Assembly: GCF_019457475.1 (NCBI RefSeq)
Contig: NZ_CP080413.1
Span: 3,286,001 to 3,350,000 of the forward strand
Direction of reading: 5' to 3'
DNA: 64,000 nt
Source of the DNA: Shewanella acanthi
Lineage (GTDB): Bacteria > Pseudomonadota > Gammaproteobacteria > Enterobacterales > Shewanellaceae
In this document: positions 38,630 to 44,823 of the stretch, one piece after another
How positions within the stretch are numbered: position 1 is the stretch's first letter
Layout of the letters: the number at the start of each line of letters is the position of its first letter
Notes under the pieces: model-generated
Told to the model about the DNA's origin: nothing
Database searches by the model: none
The model's input: the letters and a program-made list of their open reading frames with translations, nothing else
Translations under genes and position numbers: made by a program

Positions 38630-39487
38630 TTAAGCAATTTGCCCGAAGCGACCTTCTTGGTAGTCACGAATGGCTTGCTGAATTTCCGCTTGGGTGTTCA
38701 TTACAAAGGGGCCCATCTGGACGATCTTTTCGCGGATGGGTTTGCCCACAAACAGTAACATCCCCGCTCCACGCTCATCGGCCTTAAAGTGCAATGGCGC
38801 TTGGCTATCGAGGACTAAAAACTCGCCTTCATTGAATGACCACTGTGAATTATCGCCTTTCTTCAGGCCGCCTTGGTAAAGATACAGCGCCGCAAACTCA
38901 TGCTTGGATAAATCGAGCTGCGCTTCACCGTTAGGGTTAATCATCATATCGCTAATCGCCGCCTCACCCGACAAACCCTGAATGCTAGAGCTAATCGCCG
39001 CTTGGCCAGCAAATGCCCAATCCCCCGCTAAAGCTTTTAGGGTTGCGCCAGTGTCGTTAGTGGTTTCAACACTGGGGACTGATGCAGTGTCCTGATAGGT
39101 CGCTGGGCGCAGTTTGTCTTTAGCTGGCATGTTGACCCAAATTTGGAAGCCATGCAGGCCATCGAGCGCATCGGCCAGCGGCATTTCAGAATGCACCACG
39201 CCGTAACCCGTACTCATCCACTGCACATCACCGGCCCGAATCGCCTTGACATTGCCCATCTGGTCGCGGTGCTCAAAGCCCCCCTTACGGATATAGGTAA
39301 AAGTCTCCATCCCACGGTGCGGATGCGGCGGGAAGCCACCAATAAAATCCTGTTTATCATCGGATTTAATCTCATCCATCATCAAGAATGGGTCGAAATG
39401 GGTAGTGACAAAATCCGCCACACGACGAATATTCACCCCATCGCCATCCATCGCAGGTCTGGCAGAAAACTGACCTAATACTTTCAT
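38630..39487 (-). CDS. pirin family protein
   Basis: A 285-residue bicupin of the pirin family. FLMMDEIKSDDKQDFIGGFPPHPHRGMETFTYIRKGGFEHRDQMGN near 34-80 includes the metal-binding HPHRG (two His), the later His in FEHRD and Glu of VHSEMP. Pirins bind Fe in the N-terminal cupin; roles range from quercetinase to redox-dependent cofactors, so the function here is open. AGGAG precedes the ATG. Last conserved chromosomal gene before the integron-like region. Confidence 0.92.
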   Translation of the reverse strand: MKVLGQFSARPAMDGDGVNIRRVADFVTTHFDPFLMMDEIKSDDKQDFIGGFPPHPHRGMETFTYIRKGGFEHRDQMGNVKAIRAGDVQWMSTGYGVVHSEMPLADALDGLHGFQIWVNMPAKDKLRPATYQDTASVPSVETTNDTGATLKALAGDWAFAGQAAISSSIQGLSGEAAISDMMINPNGEAQLDLSKHEFAALYLYQGGLKKGDNSQWSFNEGEFLVLDSQAPLHFKADERGAGMLLFVGKPIREKIVQMGPFVMNTQAEIQQAIRDYQEGRFGQIA

Positions 39488-39778: not shown

Positions 39779-39882
39779 TAATTGCCATTGTCTCTCCAGT
39801 GACACGCCGTGAACTCATCCATGAGGGCTCGACGGCGACATCCATGTCGCCAACGGTCACAGGTGCTTCAATGGCAATTTAC
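39779..39882. repeat. palindrome-rich dispersed repeat, copy A
   Basis: A non-coding hairpin element of about 100 bases. Outer arms AATTGCCATTG / CAATGGCAATT enclose GTGACACGCC, GGCTCGACGG and the inner palindrome GGCGACAT CC ATGTCGCC. The segment 39796-39843 recurs, inverted and diverged, at about 44107-44157 on the far side of the cassette region. I recall similar sequences scattered in Shewanella genomes, but that needs checking. It behaves like a MITE or other repeated extragenic element. Confidence 0.65.
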
Positions 39883-39972
39883 ACATCCGCACAACCGTTT
39901 CGTCATCTTAAGGGACATTTTTGAGTTAAAGCATTAACTCTAACTAGTCAGTTTCGGATAAAAATTTCTATG

Positions 39973-40088
39973 GATTAACGCCTTGCTTACCGGCCCAACG
40001 GAGCAGAGCAAGCTTGTTGTAAAGCTTGCGCAGCAAACCACAAGCTTGCGGCGCGTAGTTGGGTCCGAGTACAGCAAATTGTTATAAG
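39973..40088 (-). other. attC-like recombination site 1
   Basis: Minus-strand reading from GCTTATAACAA to AAGGCGTTAATCC, about 116 bases, with a long imperfect stem including CCCAAC / GTTGGG. It follows the stop codon of the nuclease-like cassette (TAA lies inside the outer core) and is the distal end of the cassette array. Confidence 0.7.
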
Positions 40089-40618
40089 CTGAACTTGCCG
40101 CCATACTCACTAACCAGATTTCCTGCTTTAAACACTTGAACTATGTAAGAGTAATTTTCACGATCCAGCTCTATAAAGTAACCGAGCTCATAGCCACAAA
40201 CATGTTCTGGATGTGTCTCTCCGTCGTAAGACCAGACGCCATCAAAACTAGATTTTGTTAAAGTCCTCAATCTAGCTCTATCGCTAGATTTCTCTTCTTC
40301 TGGCCGTTCTGACTTTTTCATTTCGATGGCAATGAGATTATCTTTTTCCATGATCTCACCTCGGCTATGCAAAATGAGATCACAAGTTATATTTACAACC
40401 TGCATTTGCTCATCAAGGATTGTTTTCACCTTGCCATTTTGCTTTCTGTTGTATTCAGGATCTGCATAGTACCCGGCGAAGCCATTTTCATTGGCTAATA
40501 TTTGCAGATGCATAGCCAATCTAGCGCAAAGATTACGTTCACTTACACCACTTAAGATGTTTTGCGCTTCTGCCTCAAAAAATATTTTCAAAGCCTTGTC
40601 AAAAACTTGTGATGGCAC
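40082..40618 (-). CDS. cassette gene 1: PD-(D/E)XK nuclease-like protein
   Basis: A 178-residue soluble protein. A helical N-terminus with a conserved-looking Glu (SGVSERNLCARLAMHLQ near 21) precedes a core ITCDLILHSRG (Asp near 86) and LIAIEMKKS (ExK near 105). The spacing of E, D and ExK is that of the PD-(D/E)XK nuclease fold, so it may be a restriction-type or anti-phage nuclease; this is inference. GTG at 40618 is the start, with AGGGAGGG just upstream; a longer frame to 40705 runs through the attC site and is rejected. The stop lies inside attC site 1. AT-richer than the flanking chromosome. Confidence 0.65.
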   Translation of the reverse strand: MPSQVFDKALKIFFEAEAQNILSGVSERNLCARLAMHLQILANENGFAGYYADPEYNRKQNGKVKTILDEQMQVVNITCDLILHSRGEIMEKDNLIAIEMKKSERPEEEKSSDRARLRTLTKSSFDGVWSYDGETHPEHVCGYELGYFIELDRENYSYIVQVFKAGNLVSEYGGKFSL

Positions 40619-40631
40619 GAACCCTCCCTGG

Positions 40632-40749
40632 CTTATAACGCCTTGCTCATTTGCGCAGCGGTTGTAGTGGATTTTTGTGCAACAATGAGCGAAGCGAATG
40701 CACAAAAAGGAACGTAGACCGCTGCGTCAAATGGAGCAATTTGTTATGC
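40632..40749 (-). other. attC-like recombination site 2
   Basis: Minus strand from GCATAACAAATTGCTCC to GGCGTTATAAGC. The arms CATTTGACGCAGCGGT and ACCGCTGCGCAAATG pair with one bulged base, as in true attC sites. The stop of cassette gene 2 lies inside the first core, and cassette gene 1 starts 14 bases beyond the last core. Confidence 0.85.
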
Positions 40750-41106
40750 ATGACGCCCGTTATACCAATAGGTATGTTTGCAAGGTACGCAGCCGAATGC
40801 TGTTTGATTCAAATCTGAATGATATCCTTCATTAACCAGGTGAACGGCCTTTCCTTCGCTTTCCCAACATTTCGGGCAGTAAGGTGTAGCATCTCCTTCG
40901 CTATAGTAGAAAGGCGCGTTGAAAGAAAGTGATTTATTTAATAGCACCTTCTTTTTTAGCTCGTCGACTTCTATTTGCAATGCGTGATTCGTTCGCGAAA
41001 GGTCAATAATTTCACCTTCTAACTCGACAATTTTACGATATAGCTCAATGTCGCCTAACTTTTTTACCAACTCTGCGACTTCTTTTGCATTTGAGATGAT
41101 GCTCAT
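40744..41106 (-). CDS. cassette gene 2: coiled-coil protein with zinc ribbon
   Basis: A 120-residue protein. Residues about 8-58 are a predicted coiled coil (ELVKKLGDIELYRKIVELEGEI and onward heptads). The C-terminal half has CPKCWESEGK near 79 and CVPCKHTYW near 106, a four-Cys zinc-binding ribbon. This plan occurs in several phage- and integron-borne hypothetical proteins; function unknown. AAGGAAAACGT precedes the ATG. It is bounded by attC sites on both sides, with the TAA stop in the core of site 2. Confidence 0.7.
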   Translation of the reverse strand: MSIISNAKEVAELVKKLGDIELYRKIVELEGEIIDLSRTNHALQIEVDELKKKVLLNKSLSFNAPFYYSEGDATPYCPKCWESEGKAVHLVNEGYHSDLNQTAFGCVPCKHTYWYNGRHA

Positions 41107-41117
41107 ACGTTTTCCTT

Positions 41118-41199
41118 AGGCATAACGCCGCCAGCAGCGGCCGAGTGTAACGAGGTCCAGCGACCGAAGGGAGCGATGTTGGCTGGCCTTGTTATATGG
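41118..41199 (-). other. attC-like recombination site 3
   Basis: Minus strand from GCCATATAACAAGGCCAGCC to GCTGGCGGCGTTATGCC, 82 bases. Core boxes TATAACAA and GCGTTATGC with inner GGCCAGC / GCTGGC arms are typical of attC. It separates cassette genes 3 and 2. Confidence 0.85.
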
Positions 41200-41512
41200 C
41201 AAACTCTTCATTAGGCTCCTCCAATTGCTCAACTTCATCTAGACCGCAAATTCCATTACCGCCAGTTAAATAACGCAGCCCCAAATAGACTTGGTCCCCA
41301 GCTTGTTCGGCCTGAATTACAACTGCAGGCGTTCTCTCTCCAGTATCTTCATCGATCTGAATAACACATGTTGGCAACATTGCATTCAGTGCAAAACTTC
41401 CTTCAGGGATGTAAAAAACAGCAACACCATTTTTCACATCGTCTTCGGTCGCAACTCTACCAGACAAGTGAGGCAAGCTTTCCCAATCACTTGGTTCGAA
41501 CGATTCCCACAT
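41192..41512 (-). CDS. cassette gene 3: hypothetical 106-residue protein
   Basis: Unrecognised acidic soluble protein beginning MWESFEPSDWESLPHLSGRV, with a middle ...VAVFYIPEGSFALNAMLP and ending EQLEEPNEEFAI. No catalytic motif, signal or membrane helix. ATG 41512 has AAGGTGATT upstream and lies directly after attC site 4; the in-frame extension to 41677 runs through that site and into cassette 4 and is rejected. A compact acidic single domain is common among integron cassette products. Confidence 0.6.
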   Translation of the reverse strand: MWESFEPSDWESLPHLSGRVATEDDVKNGVAVFYIPEGSFALNAMLPTCVIQIDEDTGERTPAVVIQAEQAGDQVYLGLRYLTGGNGICGLDEVEQLEEPNEEFAI

Positions 41513-41522
41513 AATCACCTTG

Positions 41523-41604
41523 CCATATAACGCCGCCAGCAGGGGACGAAAAACCAGAGCGAAGCGGCGGTTTTTTTGTTCCCTCTGGCTGGCCTTGTTA
41601 GGCA
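41523..41604 (-). other. attC-like recombination site 4
   Basis: Minus strand from GCCTAACAAGGCCAGCCAGA to CTGCTGGCGGCGTTATATGG, 82 bases. The stem includes AGGGAAC / GTCCCCT and AAAAAACC / GGTTTTT with a GCTTCGC tip. Very similar in its ends to site 3, as expected within one array. Confidence 0.85.
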
Positions 41605-41930
41605 TTTGCATGGAGCTTACTACGCAAGCGCTGTTGATTAGTTTCATTAGCGTTTTCCCATGCCCCAAAAAGACCAAACCAATATAGCCTTTCGTTTAAT
41701 GTTAAGCCGCCAATATTGTCTATGGCGGCATTTTTGAAATTATGAAAATCAGAGTGAAATTTGTTTGAAGCTTCCGTATCTTGGAACCAAACATTTCCAT
41801 GCCACTTGCTAATTAGATACGCGAGCGCTTCCACATCTTTGTCATCTTGCTTCCATTCCCCGACCAAATGAGAAAGCCTTTCTCTTAATTCTGGCTCTTG
41901 CACGGAGTTGACTAGCTCATCTAAGTTCAT
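41598..41930 (-). CDS. cassette gene 4: hypothetical 110-residue protein
   Basis: Unrecognised, mostly helical soluble protein (LDELVNSVQEPELRERLSHLV, then ALAYLISKWHGNVWFQD and ERLYWFGLFGAWENANE). Trp-rich C-terminal half. No known domain seen. The stop TAA lies within the GCCTAACAA core of attC site 4. The ribosome site is weak (AGGCATCACT before ATG), overlapping the core of attC site 5. Confidence 0.6.
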   Translation of the reverse strand: MNLDELVNSVQEPELRERLSHLVGEWKQDDKDVEALAYLISKWHGNVWFQDTEASNKFHSDFHNFKNAAIDNIGGLTLNERLYWFGLFGAWENANETNQQRLRSKLHANA

Positions 41931-41936
41931 AGTGAT

Positions 41937-42028
41937 GCCTAACGGGCAAATAATAGTTGGCTAAAATAGTGAACGAAGTGAACAAAAGCCAACTGTTATT
42001 TGTCCCTGTTGAATTGCTTGTTATATGG
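41937..42028 (-). other. attC-like recombination site 5
   Basis: Minus strand from CATATAACAAGCAATTC to GCCCGTTAGGCA. The stem arms AGTTGGCT / AGCCAACT extend through AAATAA(T/C), nearly 20 paired bases with small bulges. The outer core GTTAGGC matches the GTTRRRY consensus exactly. Confidence 0.85.
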
Positions 42029-42032
42029 CTGG

Positions 42033-42380
42033 TTAACCTTTCTTGGTTTTTATTAGCAAAACGAATTTATGAAACAGAATTGGTAAATAATACCACCATG
42101 CCGTACCGACAATTCCGGTGTAAATAGCTGGCACCCAAAAGTTATTAATATCCCTAAATATATTGTAATTACCATTTTCGTCAATAGAGCTTAAAAGCCA
42201 ATTACCGTCGAAAATATAGCTGACAGGAAACATACCTAAAGAAATGGGAAAATCTAAAGGAATAAATAAAAGCCACGCATTAACTGCCACGGGATCTGAT
42301 GACGTAGCAATTACGTAAGCCATAAATATGACAAAGCTTAAATGTAAAACTCCAAAGGTAATCGCAATCTTCTTAATCAT
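42033..42380 (-). CDS. cassette gene 5: small membrane protein
   Basis: Unrecognised 115-residue inner-membrane protein with about three hydrophobic segments: residues 5-26 (IAITFGVLHLSFVIFMAYVI), 35-55 (NAWLLFIPLDFPISLGMFPV) and 84-110 (VPAIYTGIVGTAWWYYLPIL), with a basic tail KTKKG. An acidic loop (SIDENGNYNIFRD) lies between helices 2 and 3. Function unknown; small multi-pass proteins are frequent in cassette arrays. Bounded by attC sites 5 and 6. Confidence 0.6.
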   Translation of the reverse strand: MIKKIAITFGVLHLSFVIFMAYVIATSSDPVAVNAWLLFIPLDFPISLGMFPVSYIFDGNWLLSSIDENGNYNIFRDINNFWVPAIYTGIVGTAWWYYLPILFHKFVLLIKTKKG

Positions 42381-42383
42381 GAT

Positions 42384-42459
42384 GCCATATAACGCCCGTA
42401 TTTGCGGCTGGTTTGGAGCGCAGCGGGAAACCAGTCCGACAACATGCGCTTGTTAGGCG
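42384..42459 (-). other. attC-like recombination site 6
   Basis: Minus strand from CGCCTAACAAGCGCATG to ACGGGCGTTATATGGC, 76 bases, with GGACTGGTTT / AAACCAGCC as inner stem. It separates cassette genes 6 and 5. Confidence 0.8.
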
Positions 42460-42460
42460 A

Positions 42461-43231
42461 TTACAAAGCCTTAAACTCTACTTTGAATGAGCCGTGGGCT
42501 TTTTCACCTTTAAAAAAGTTAATGTCAGTTAAACCTTTGCTACAACATATTTTACGTATTTCATCAATATCTTCTTGAGTAGTGTTGATTCCAAAATAGA
42601 TTTCACGAATAGCCTTTTCACTAATTTTGTGTAGCCCTGATTTATTTTTATATATCCTTATTTCACTTTCATAGCTCCATTGAGACGATTTAATCTTTAG
42701 TGTATCAATGGTTGACTTTTCTGGATCATCTAAGTAATTAAGCTCTTCATAACTATCTTTGTAATCGACTCTTATCGGTGTCACAAAGAAATCTAAGTCG
42801 GCTTCCATATCTAAGCCGAAAACAGCCCCTTGGTGATATTGAGAATAATGTGACCACATTAAGATGTCATCAAATCTTTCTGAGAGAGATAGAACACCTT
42901 TAGTATAAATAGTCTTCTCCTTTGTAGTTTTTACAAGTTCAGCTAATTTTTCTGGATTTCTTTGTAGCCACTCTATTGTTTGCTCTATTGTCTCTTCAGG
43001 GATCATCAGCCTCTTAAAGTGCTTTCGTGCGTCACCCAAAGTCGGAGCCGGATTCTCTGAAAGACCACAATCAAATGGGTCATTAAATGTGTCTGGAGTA
43101 GCAAACCAAAATGAGAAATTATCTAATATTTGTTTTGCTTGATCTATTGTCCTGTACTTATATAGCAGCTTAGGAAAATTCCCGTTATCGATGCCTCTTT
43201 GTATCAGTTCTTTTTTATGCTCTTGATTCAT
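42461..43231 (-). CDS. cassette gene 6: DUF2971 family protein
   Basis: A 256-residue soluble protein of the DUF2971 family. Family features in order: LLYKYR near 22, FSFWFATPDTFNDPFDCGLS near 40-58, LSLSERFDDILMWSHYSQYHQGAVFGLDM near 113-142, KSSQWSYESEIRIYK near 181 and IREIYFGINTT near 208. The family's biochemical role is unknown to me; members are frequent in accessory islands and cassette arrays. It is the largest and first cassette relative to the vanished integrase. The stop falls beside attC site 6 and a further attC lies upstream. Confidence 0.8.
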   Translation of the reverse strand: MNQEHKKELIQRGIDNGNFPKLLYKYRTIDQAKQILDNFSFWFATPDTFNDPFDCGLSENPAPTLGDARKHFKRLMIPEETIEQTIEWLQRNPEKLAELVKTTKEKTIYTKGVLSLSERFDDILMWSHYSQYHQGAVFGLDMEADLDFFVTPIRVDYKDSYEELNYLDDPEKSTIDTLKIKSSQWSYESEIRIYKNKSGLHKISEKAIREIYFGINTTQEDIDEIRKICCSKGLTDINFFKGEKAHGSFKVEFKAL

Positions 43232-43249
43232 GACGTACTTCTCTTTTCG

Positions 43250-43309
43250 CCTAACGTCTTAGTATTGATGCCCTGTGCTGTTTGCTGGGCATCAATCGAT
43301 TGTTGGACT
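43250..43309 (-). other. attC-like recombination site 7
   Basis: Minus strand from GTCCAACAATCGATTGATGC to AAGACGTTAGGCG, 60 bases. The outer cores GTCCAAC and GTTAGGC match RYYYAAC and GTTRRRY exactly, and ATTGATGCCC / GGGCATCAAT forms the stem. No intact gene lies on its 5' side, so the cassette it belonged to has been lost. Confidence 0.85.
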
Positions 43310-43583
43310 TGGCCGCTGCCACATCCGTACTATTTGGTATTAATCATGCTATAGGAATTTGCTTTTTTACGGTAGGGGGTTCTTTAACCAATTGAGGACT
43401 AATTGCTTGAATTATTTTGTGCTTTAACCTCCTCAGCAACGGTTTTGGCCGTGTTTAGTGCTGCCGATTACGCGTGTTGGCCCGTAAGTTCAAGTGACAA
43501 ACATGACTCTTCCCCTGCATAGGCATCACGCCATCCACTCTCATCCCCTCACACGTTAACTACCGCTTACGTTATCCTCGAGT
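43310..43583. other. intergenic stretch between attC site 7 and the transposase remnant
   Basis: About 270 bases with no convincing gene on either strand. It should contain whatever remains of the attI site, the integrase promoter and the lost first cassette. I could not recognise any of these. Confidence 0.4.
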
Positions 43584-43782
43584 TCAAGGCAACCCTGCGG
43601 CGCGAGGCAACTCAAACTGAGCTGTATTTATCAGTAATCCAGCAGGCTTTATTACCCCCTGAAATTGCAGATGACCGTGCTGACATTTTGGGCAGAGCCA
43701 CGTATAGAGCTCCTTCACCGCTGGACTCGCTATGGCTGGCTGAGATTGATGCAAGTGTGGCTTAATGAGCGCGAGTTTTTTA
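43584..43782 (-). pseudogene. IS91-like transposase C-terminal remnant
   Basis: About 65 codons open on the minus strand, encoding KKLALIKPHLHQ, then LYTWLCPKCQHGHLQFQGVI and a Gly/Ala-rich end before the stop. The CPKC-x-HGHL ribbon near a transposase-like C-terminus resembles the tail of IS91-family rolling-circle transposases. No upstream part of the gene is present. Its upstream edge coincides with the point where the integrase remnant on the other strand begins. Family assignment is tentative. Confidence 0.4.
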
Positions 43783-43784
43783 CG

Positions 43785-43878
43785 CCTTGGGCATAATGAT
43801 GTGAGTACCACACAAATCTATACCCATGTACTTGGCCAACATTTCGCAGGGACAACTAGTCCGTTAGACACACTATAA
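43785..43878 (+). pseudogene. integron integrase (intI) 3' remnant
   Basis: About 30 codons on the plus strand read LGHNDVSTTQIYTHV and end AGTTSPLDTL before a TAA stop. This is the C-terminus of an IntI-type tyrosine recombinase, with the conserved LGH of the third motif and the catalytic Tyr of QIYTHV. Further upstream the frame is closed by stops, so at least nine tenths of the gene is missing. Its orientation, opposite to the cassettes, and its position beyond the array are those expected for intI. Confidence 0.8.
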
Positions 43879-44106
43879 AGTCAGAGTCCTTTAGTTATTC
43901 CGTAGCATTACTAAAATTTGGTCAACTTACAGCTTGTAGAGTTAATTGCTAGCAGCCCCGATAATGCGCAATGGGGCAAAAAAGCTTTTAGTCAGATGAA
44001 CAATTCGATGGTCGTAAAGATTGGCATTGTTGCAACTGTTACTGTTGGCGGCATGGCCGCTCTTTCACATCCATGTGATCGCGCCATTAGTACATCTATG
44101 TACAAC

Positions 44107-44157
44107 AGATGTCGCCGTCGAGCCTTCAAGGATGTGTTTATGGCGTGTCACAGGGGA
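44107..44157 (-). repeat. palindrome-rich dispersed repeat, copy B
   Basis: On the minus strand GTGACACGCC, CATCC, TGAAGGCTCGACGGCGACAT reproduce copy A at 39796-39843 with about eight substitutions. Neighbouring palindromes (TCACATCCATGTGA near 44068, GTACATCTATGTAC near 44090) suggest further degraded repeat units. A plus-strand frame 43918-44199 covering this is not a gene. Confidence 0.6.
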
Positions 44158-44232
44158 AACAATGATAATCCTGTGCCGCGAGTTGAAGGAACTTTTTAAA
44201 TTCTGTTTTTAACAGTTAAGACGAACCCAAAC

Positions 44233-44433
44233 CTAGTCTGGTTTAAACACCCCAATCACGGCGCCAGTCGCTTTTTCAGCGACTTTAACGTCGGTTTGCT
44301 GTTCGCGGTAATCGCAGTCGGTACATTCTACGGTTTCGATACCGTTTTCTTTAAACAGCAGAATGCTGTCTTTGGCGCCACATTTAGGGCATTTAGCGCC
44401 AGCTACGAAGCGCTTTTTGATTTTGGTTGTCAT
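44233..44433 (-). CDS. yheV: YheV-family zinc-ribbon protein
   Basis: A 66-residue protein of the YheV/DUF2387 family: TTKIKKRFVAGAKCPKCGAKDS followed by VECTDCDYRE, four Cys forming a zinc ribbon. The start at 44433 is set by AAGGTATTAGC; six more codons upstream are possible but atypical. In E. coli yheV lies with kefB and slyD; here it is divergent from yheS. Function unknown. Confidence 0.85.
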   Translation of the reverse strand: MTTKIKKRFVAGAKCPKCGAKDSILLFKENGIETVECTDCDYREQQTDVKVAEKATGAVIGVFKPD

Positions 44434-44823
44434 GCTAATACCTTTACGCACAGACCAGTACAGTTGAATCAGAAGATGACTACGCTTAGCTTGATAAACC
44501 GAAAGCGTGAGCCCGAAATTGGCGGCTATTTTGCCACAGTGCCCAGCTATTGCCAGCCTTTAAACCAAGTTGTGATGCCATAAAAGGTGAGCAGGTGTTA
44601 GCATCTTGCGGGATTCACTCAAGAAGGATTTGCCAAATCGGCCGTACACTCGCTTTACCACTCATCATAAGAGCGCCATAAAAGCCGCCACAACACTCGC
44701 CAAAAAGAAGAGGTAAAAAGTGTAAGAAATACTCAGCAACACGGCCTAAATTGTGGTTTGCCATTAGCTTGTACGCTATCATCACAGCCCTTAACCATTC
44801 ACGATATGACCAAGTTGTAGTTA
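44434..44823. other. yheV-yheS intergenic region
   Basis: 390 bases with no convincing gene, hairpin or operator. It holds both divergent promoters. Confidence 0.5.

Follow-up and report, generated by a model that had tools for sequence, protein, structure and literature searches.

We analysed a 64-kb stretch of the genome of Shewanella acanthi (contig NZ_CP080413.1, positions 3,286,001 to 3,350,000; hereafter the window), in which a 3.3-kb region between a pirin gene and a yheV-like gene carries six integron cassettes on the minus strand. With a probability of roughly 80%, we read this region as an integrase-less cassette array that is bounded by the remnant of an IS91-family insertion sequence (IS) and by a 30-codon relic of an integron integrase gene (intI), and as a likely member of a family of integration platforms that is dispersed in the genus Shewanella. 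Such platforms have an attI site, a middle block, a conserved downstream half (the stretch where the last cassette ends) and outer repeats that resemble repetitive extragenic palindromic (REP) sequences; the window has the outer REP-like end and a downstream half, which is short, and lacks attI and the middle block.

Cassettes, attC sites and integrase relic

An integron cassette runs from the TT of the G^TTRRRY ahead of it to the end of its own attC, and the R'' box of each cassette must therefore mirror the R' box that precedes the cassette. The six cassettes of the window span 39973-43231, each of their open reading frames (ORFs) being followed by an imperfect palindrome with attC-type cores, and in all six R'' matches the preceding R' as its reverse complement, over 7-11 nt each and 55 nt in sum. 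When the order of the cassettes was permuted, this sum was reached by 2 of the 720 orders, namely the true order and one other, the latter because two sites have the same R'. The reading of this DNA that was made from the letters alone (the sequence-only reading) had reported stop codons inside several attC cores, and a TAA indeed lies inside the R'' box in four ORFs, c1-c4. The array and its flanks are laid out below, with sites S1-S7, cassette genes c1-c6 and the scores of an attC covariance model that is described after the list.

38630..39487, minus strand: pirin gene (flank), PF02678
39780..39878, unstranded: REP-like hairpin repeat on the pirin side of the array, sharing 84.8% identity over 99 nt with the repeat found left of one dispersed attI element (L239)
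39913..39981, minus strand: start of the conserved downstream half (after the last cassette in dispersed platforms), beginning at the S1 crossover; 92% over 39 nt to L116 and 85% over 59 nt to L232
39973..40087, minus strand: attC site S1; R'' mirrors R' of S2 over 9 nt; model matches part only, E 0.8
40082..40618, minus strand: cassette gene c1, 178 aa, no confident family
40633..40749, minus strand: attC site S2; R'' mirrors R' of S3 over 7 nt; missed by the model
40744..41106, minus strand: cassette gene c2, 120 aa, no family over its cut-off
41120..41197, minus strand: attC site S3; 28.8 bits, E 4.2e-4; R'' mirrors R' of S4 over 11 nt
41192..41512, minus strand: cassette gene c3, 106 aa, no family
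41525..41603, minus strand: attC site S4; 39.6 bits, E 1.7e-6; 9-nt mirror with S5
41598..41930, minus strand: cassette gene c4, 110 aa, no family over its cut-off
41937..42026, minus strand: attC site S5; 13.1 bits, E 1.3; 10-nt mirror with S6
42033..42380, minus strand: cassette gene c5, 115 aa, no family
42387..42458, minus strand: attC site S6; 36.1 bits, E 1e-5; 9-nt mirror with S7
42461..43231, minus strand: cassette gene c6, 256 aa, DUF2971 (PF11185, 29.1 bits, cut-off 22)
43249..43308, minus strand: attC-like site S7, the 3' terminus of an IS91-family element, a terminus that recurs in 48 copies
43252..43784, minus strand: 3' remnant of the IS91-family element (transposase C-terminus and 3' non-coding end), matching the IS91 transposase C-terminus
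43786..43878, plus strand: intI C-terminal relic, 30 codons and stop, TIGR02249 positions 285-315
43970..44169, unstranded: outer REP-like end on the yheV side, parts of which recur 3' of the G061 intI and on the left of a dispersed attI element
44233..44436, minus strand: yheV-like DUF2387 gene (flank), PF09526

(G, C and L numbers are our handles for genomes, contigs and loci, G000 being the genome of the window.) The REP-like repeats bracket the array in inverted orientation, with the inverted copy of 39780-39878 at 44108-44169, and one more copy is present in the genome (G000:C1:4090069-4090170). Scans of the window for Rfam families at gathering scores and for tRNAs gave no match.

A blind hairpin scan of the window, which counts both strands of a palindrome, returned 391 candidates; 21 of them have 11 or more outer pairs, and 12 of these 21 fall in the array. 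The attC covariance model (R1) was trained on 21 sites from other genomes, all outside the window: a script collected 38 sites, 33 of these passed a filter, and 12 were then removed by eye since the automatic R' looked misplaced or the row nearly duplicated another, while the consensus structure was drawn by hand from two of the sequences. The training alignment has a covariation score of 0.510 (0.111 when shuffled) and changes on both sides at 10 of 15 pairs (mean of 7.3 in shuffles). Searching the 64 kb up to E = 10 with this model gave five matches, all of them in the array and on the minus strand, and none outside it; with filters off, over 6 kb, scores were lower and four matches were obtained (E 0.002-0.16). 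Scoring by covariance was the check that the sequence-only reading had proposed, and with a model from outside sites it comes out in favour of the array: S3, S4 and S6 are significant, S1 (in part) and S5 are marginal, and S2 and S7 are missed, a point to which we return. The six minus-strand cassettes and their attC grammar are thereby confirmed.

Beyond the array, 30 intI codons and a stop stand on the plus strand, in the canonical orientation opposite to the cassettes, as had been noted from the sequence alone (TIGR02249 285-315, E 1.2e-8; profile coordinates 43783-43875). The integron-integrase profile gave 10 matches in the whole genome, the relic included, and none of them passes the cut-off (best 80 bits, cut-off 265); the best of these genomic matches appear to be of the Xer type. 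We compared the codons of the relic with those of 14 IntI genes (16 were queried and two gave no row). Six of these genes (L047, L048, L068, L070, L092 and L094) encode the same 30 residues and differ from the relic by 7-12 synonymous and no nonsynonymous changes, while the other eight differ at 2-6 nonsynonymous codons; five of the six pass the profile cut-off and the sixth (in G083) is itself broken. Since only synonymous differences separate the relic from these genes, intI was presumably under selection until recently, and its loss from this locus is probably recent. As the genome retains no intI, the cassettes of the array are probably frozen in place, barring the arrival of an integrase in trans.

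The seventh site and the IS91-family element

The sequence-only reading had counted six cassettes and seven attC sites. The six cassettes stand and so do seven attC-like sites, yet the seventh is the 3' end of an IS91-family element and not an ordinary cassette attC. The comparison covers 97 Shewanella genomes, and all counts of attI, of the downstream half, of IS91 matches at 96% identity and of empty-site loci are lower bounds, the first 6-8 candidates per genome having been scored. The stretch 43300-43784 is 96% identical to at least three copies in G024 and G030, and the IS91-family 3' terminus was found in 48 copies examined, where the sequence past the shared G^TT point takes 46 distinct forms. 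Intact elements encode a tyrosine recombinase and an IS91 transposase (NF033538, 397 bits) in two ORFs; the window keeps only the C-terminus of the latter, while its zinc-binding and Y2 domains are intact in the element of G061 (PF04986, PF14319). That genome holds four copies that share 99.8-100% identity over 2,382 bp and one more that shares it over 1,508 bp, each preceding a different sequence, and one of the five adjoins intI and attI. In the window, the element stops at 43784 and abuts the intI relic.

If the units that follow this terminus were cassettes, their R'' should recur downstream. After dropping 3 of 46 junctions for too little sequence, and with the window's own junction included, an exact downstream recurrence of the 9-nt R'' is seen in 16 of 43 IS91-end junctions versus 47 of 1923 mismatched pairs (Fisher p 2e-14, a nominal value as the mismatched pairs share sequences and are not independent). 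By this measure, the next unit in many IS91-end junctions is a cassette in the strict sense. The element itself also looks as if it were built like a cassette: the R'' at its 3' end (GTCCAAC) and the 5' start of the element (GTTGAAC) mirror each other at six of seven positions, two copies stand in tandem and are joined at the terminus in one locus (L158), and an internally deleted copy lies between two cassettes in another (L167). A live rival is that the element has no attC, that its transposase prefers GTTR targets in attI and attC, and that S7 is merely attC-like. Elements of the IS91-family type do insert beside short fixed targets, R1 gives S7 no score, and one copy, in G083, has its left flank inside intI. 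The mirrored ends, the tandem joint and the deleted copy between cassettes all speak against a mere target preference, which we regard as a serious possibility that nevertheless falls somewhat short of even odds.

In the G083 locus (L114), the left flank of the IS91-family copy matches the intI gene, and this is a possible parallel to the intI-IS91 fusion of the window. The tyrosine recombinase of one element (L161:1462-2322) reaches 159.8 bits against the integron-integrase model and 185 bits against an Xer-type model, the respective cut-offs being 265 and 220. In three replicons, the IS91 end, cassettes and downstream end are 99.9% identical (L121 in G024:C2, L122 in G030:C23 and L123 in G024:C3); their right end is common and the left end in G030 differs, as expected from one-ended transposition. 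The idea that cassettes insert into a continuous IS91 end was dropped because no cassette-free junction between the IS91 end and the downstream half was found in the 97 genomes, and attI platforms together with a cassette-like IS are favoured instead.

attI-bearing platforms in the genus and at the pirin-yheV spot

To the left of several IS91 copies lies an attI-like stretch that is homologous to the one beside intact intI genes. Matches to this attI were found in at least 51 of the 97 genomes, and in at least 23 of the 36 genomes that have no intI match at E 1e-40 or better, while the downstream half (queried with L116) was found in at least 36 of the 97. We followed 20 attI copies over about 6.5 kb: all eight listed in G015, all eight listed in G024 and four of the eight in G039, chosen there as those that had no partner known so far. 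A Shewanella-type attI core of 28 nt has been published (PMC9892861), and all 20 copies differ from it by at most two bases. GTT stands at the crossover in 19 of them and the 9-nt R'' is present in 16; the middle block was found in 17, a REP-like match in 17 and the downstream half in 16. Beside none of the 20 was there an IntI match (tblastn with 15 IntI proteins, about 2.5 kb on the intI side and 6.5 kb on the other), and control stretches did match in the same search, the window's relic alone included. A further comparison took 18 copies whose two ends were both known, five of which also belong to the 20; their left and right stretches align, apart from breaks in a few copies.

These counts bear on the most conventional explanation, according to which a full sedentary integron decayed in situ into an ordinary cluster of attC sites lacking an integrase (CALIN), the dispersed attI copies being independent relics and no platform family existing. 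Integrase loss is an accepted route to CALINs, and the intI relic at the locus, with its lack of nonsynonymous differences to six IntIs, fits it. The common internal structure of the followed copies, with their middle block, REP-like match and downstream half and with no IntI beside them, argues against independent decays, and we therefore hold this explanation to be unlikely.

The middle block (for example in L234) carries TGTATGGGTATACAGT or close variants, which we take to resemble a LexA box and thus to be a candidate for one. A promoter scan of one platform copy (L239) found none (mean of 1.9 in shuffles). One locus (L367) that was considered as a cassette-free junction between attI and the downstream half was rejected on reading. 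At another locus (the L238 flank), compared in 13 genomes over 1.5 kb on each side, attI is present in four, an IS91 end in one and neither in eight; the search for empty sites with this flank (at least 13 loci) gave no clean boundary because REP-like modules abut the flank.

The genome of the window has a second array (G000:C1:2330268-2334893; L384 14269-18894), where an attI match (88% over 147 nt) precedes seven attC matches, of which six have E values of 0.006 or lower and the seventh 0.21; for this array, too, the genome offers no intI match over the cut-off. Outside the genus, an attI copy lies on an IncC plasmid of an Escherichia coli from urine (L382; NZ_AP028311.1, 67951-76097), followed by a gene annotated as the fosfomycin-resistance gene fosG, a sugar O-acetyltransferase gene, two attC matches and the downstream half, and Citrobacter and Enterobacter plasmids have attI and the end at the same spacing.

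Among 56 sequences examined for the locus of the window itself, pirin and yheV lie close together in 16. Of these 16 loci, six have attI, 11 the downstream half and five the IS91 end; four have the outer repeat only, one has nothing but a 101-bp spacer, and an intI trace is seen in the window alone. Five of these six attI loci have a core that departs from the published one by no more than two bases, while in the sixth (G036) the end of the core is replaced by an IS91 end. attI is accompanied by the middle block in L252, L253, L255, L258 and G015, and by part of it in G036. In the window, the locus gives no attI match (the one attI match of the genome lies at 2.33 Mb) and the middle block is absent. 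Gene content varies at this spot, as the sequence-only reading had expected: among ORFs of at least 75 aa, a single pair is common to two of the 16 loci at E 1e-6. A copy of S6 that is 94% identical stands at the same spot in G006. The pirin-yheV spot has thus probably long housed an integron whose content turns over fast. Its history is not a simple decay series, since relatives carry the middle block in the place of the relic.

The attI matches at this spot also bear on the proposal that an integrase in trans dropped cassettes one by one at ordinary attG sites, with no platform involved. Integration at attG sites was reportedly described by Loot in 2024; six relatives have an attI match at this spot, the core in five of these deviating from the published 28-nt sequence by at most two bases, and we consider this proposal very improbable. 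An ordinary operon with chance palindromes, as the short genes in the same orientation might suggest, is strongly disfavoured by the permutation test, the independent attC model and a gene content that is unrelated between relatives and turns over fast.

History of the array and its place among known systems

A history that would connect these observations starts with cassettes captured singly at an attI by IntI acting in cis or from elsewhere. A cassette-like IS91-family element would then have sat in the first position, as does one copy beside intI in G061, until a deletion took away attI, the bulk of intI and the 5' portion of the IS and thereby brought the final 30 intI codons up against the 3' end of the transposase gene. 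On a broader scale, we lean slightly towards a model in which integrase-less mini-integrons were amplified at many chromosomal sites and on plasmids and were loaded in trans by an IntI encoded elsewhere. Each would consist of a Shewanella-type attI with one cassette or a few behind it and a conserved end. The orphan cassettes of the genus would be such units, the cassette-built IS91 element would be a passenger, and the window would be a unit that lost its attI, with a recently dead integrase.

Several points weigh against the view that the window belongs to a platform family. Since attI and the middle block are absent, its membership relies on the outer repeat, the short downstream half (39-69 nt) and synteny, and five relatives have the middle block (a sixth has part of it) where the window has the intI relic. 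The model R1 missed S2 and S7 in the 64-kb search. No cassette-free junction between the IS91 end and the downstream half was found in the 97 genomes, with up to 3 mismatches or with a gapped exact pattern, and no clear one between attI and the downstream half was found in the 405 fetched loci, where alone it was sought. The pattern at the L238 flank is compatible with loss and with gain, and we identified no enzyme that would mobilise the platform.

The units resemble in one respect the integron mobilization units (IMUs) and the class 1 integrons flanked by miniature inverted-repeat transposable elements (MITEs), by which integron segments spread as short non-autonomous units. The platform is likewise an integron segment in a short non-autonomous unit; it differs in that no known transposon ends were recognised and in that it has attI and cassettes but no intI.

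The sequence-only reading had described the site as one that lost its integrase and became a CALIN. This is right as far as it goes: the array has at least two attC sites, intI persists only as the nearby 30-codon relic, and the cassette grammar holds. It is not a complete integron, having no functional intI and no attI beside its first cassette. What does not hold is its isolation, as relatives keep an attI platform at the same place, one that is dispersed in the genus, and the attI of the window is gone. CALINs are reported in most Shewanella strains (PMC9229058), and the window resembles them: genes accompany its six or seven attC-like sites, and an integrase is missing. It differs in that its bounds are identified, an IS91-family end and an intI relic on one side and the downstream half on the other, and in that the array stands where relatives keep attI.

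Single attC sites lacking an integrase (SALINs) are likewise scattered in this genus, with 115 single orphan cassettes counted in the same study (PMC9229058). The window, with six or more sites in its array, is no SALIN; a conserved end lies downstream of 16 of the 20 attI copies followed here, and the passages on SALINs that we consulted do not mention attI (PMC9229058). One CALIN with its own attI has been described, in the Shewanella phage M16-3 (PMC9892861). It has the same attI core (92.6% to our attI query) and contains some of the middle block. The stretch of it that was examined shows no downstream half, and the copies described here form a multi-copy family with a shared structure. 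For the IS, one IS91-like element forming a new cassette structure is reported in Shewanella (PMC9229058). The IS91 family with an extra tyrosine recombinase (ISShvi3) shares with ours the IS91 transposase and an attC-like 3' end that adjoins cassettes; what differs is the 48 copies with 46 distinct neighbours seen here, which could be ISShvi3 itself. We found no description of dispersed attI-bearing platforms in the titles and abstract openings that our searches of the open-licence literature listed, and one may exist elsewhere. To the known CALINs, SALINs and single attI-bearing CALIN, the present analysis thus likely adds a dispersed family of integrase-less platforms.

Integrase-less cassette clusters may arise by integrase loss, by insertion at ordinary genomic sites or by other routes. 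Multi-copy attI platforms, if the model holds, would be a third answer, with many capture sites per genome served by one integrase, and the trade in cassettes would need no neighbouring intI. The family would then likely explain how orphan arrays arise and how they change their genes, and, since attI units lie on plasmids of Escherichia coli, Citrobacter and Enterobacter, this route may reach beyond the genus.

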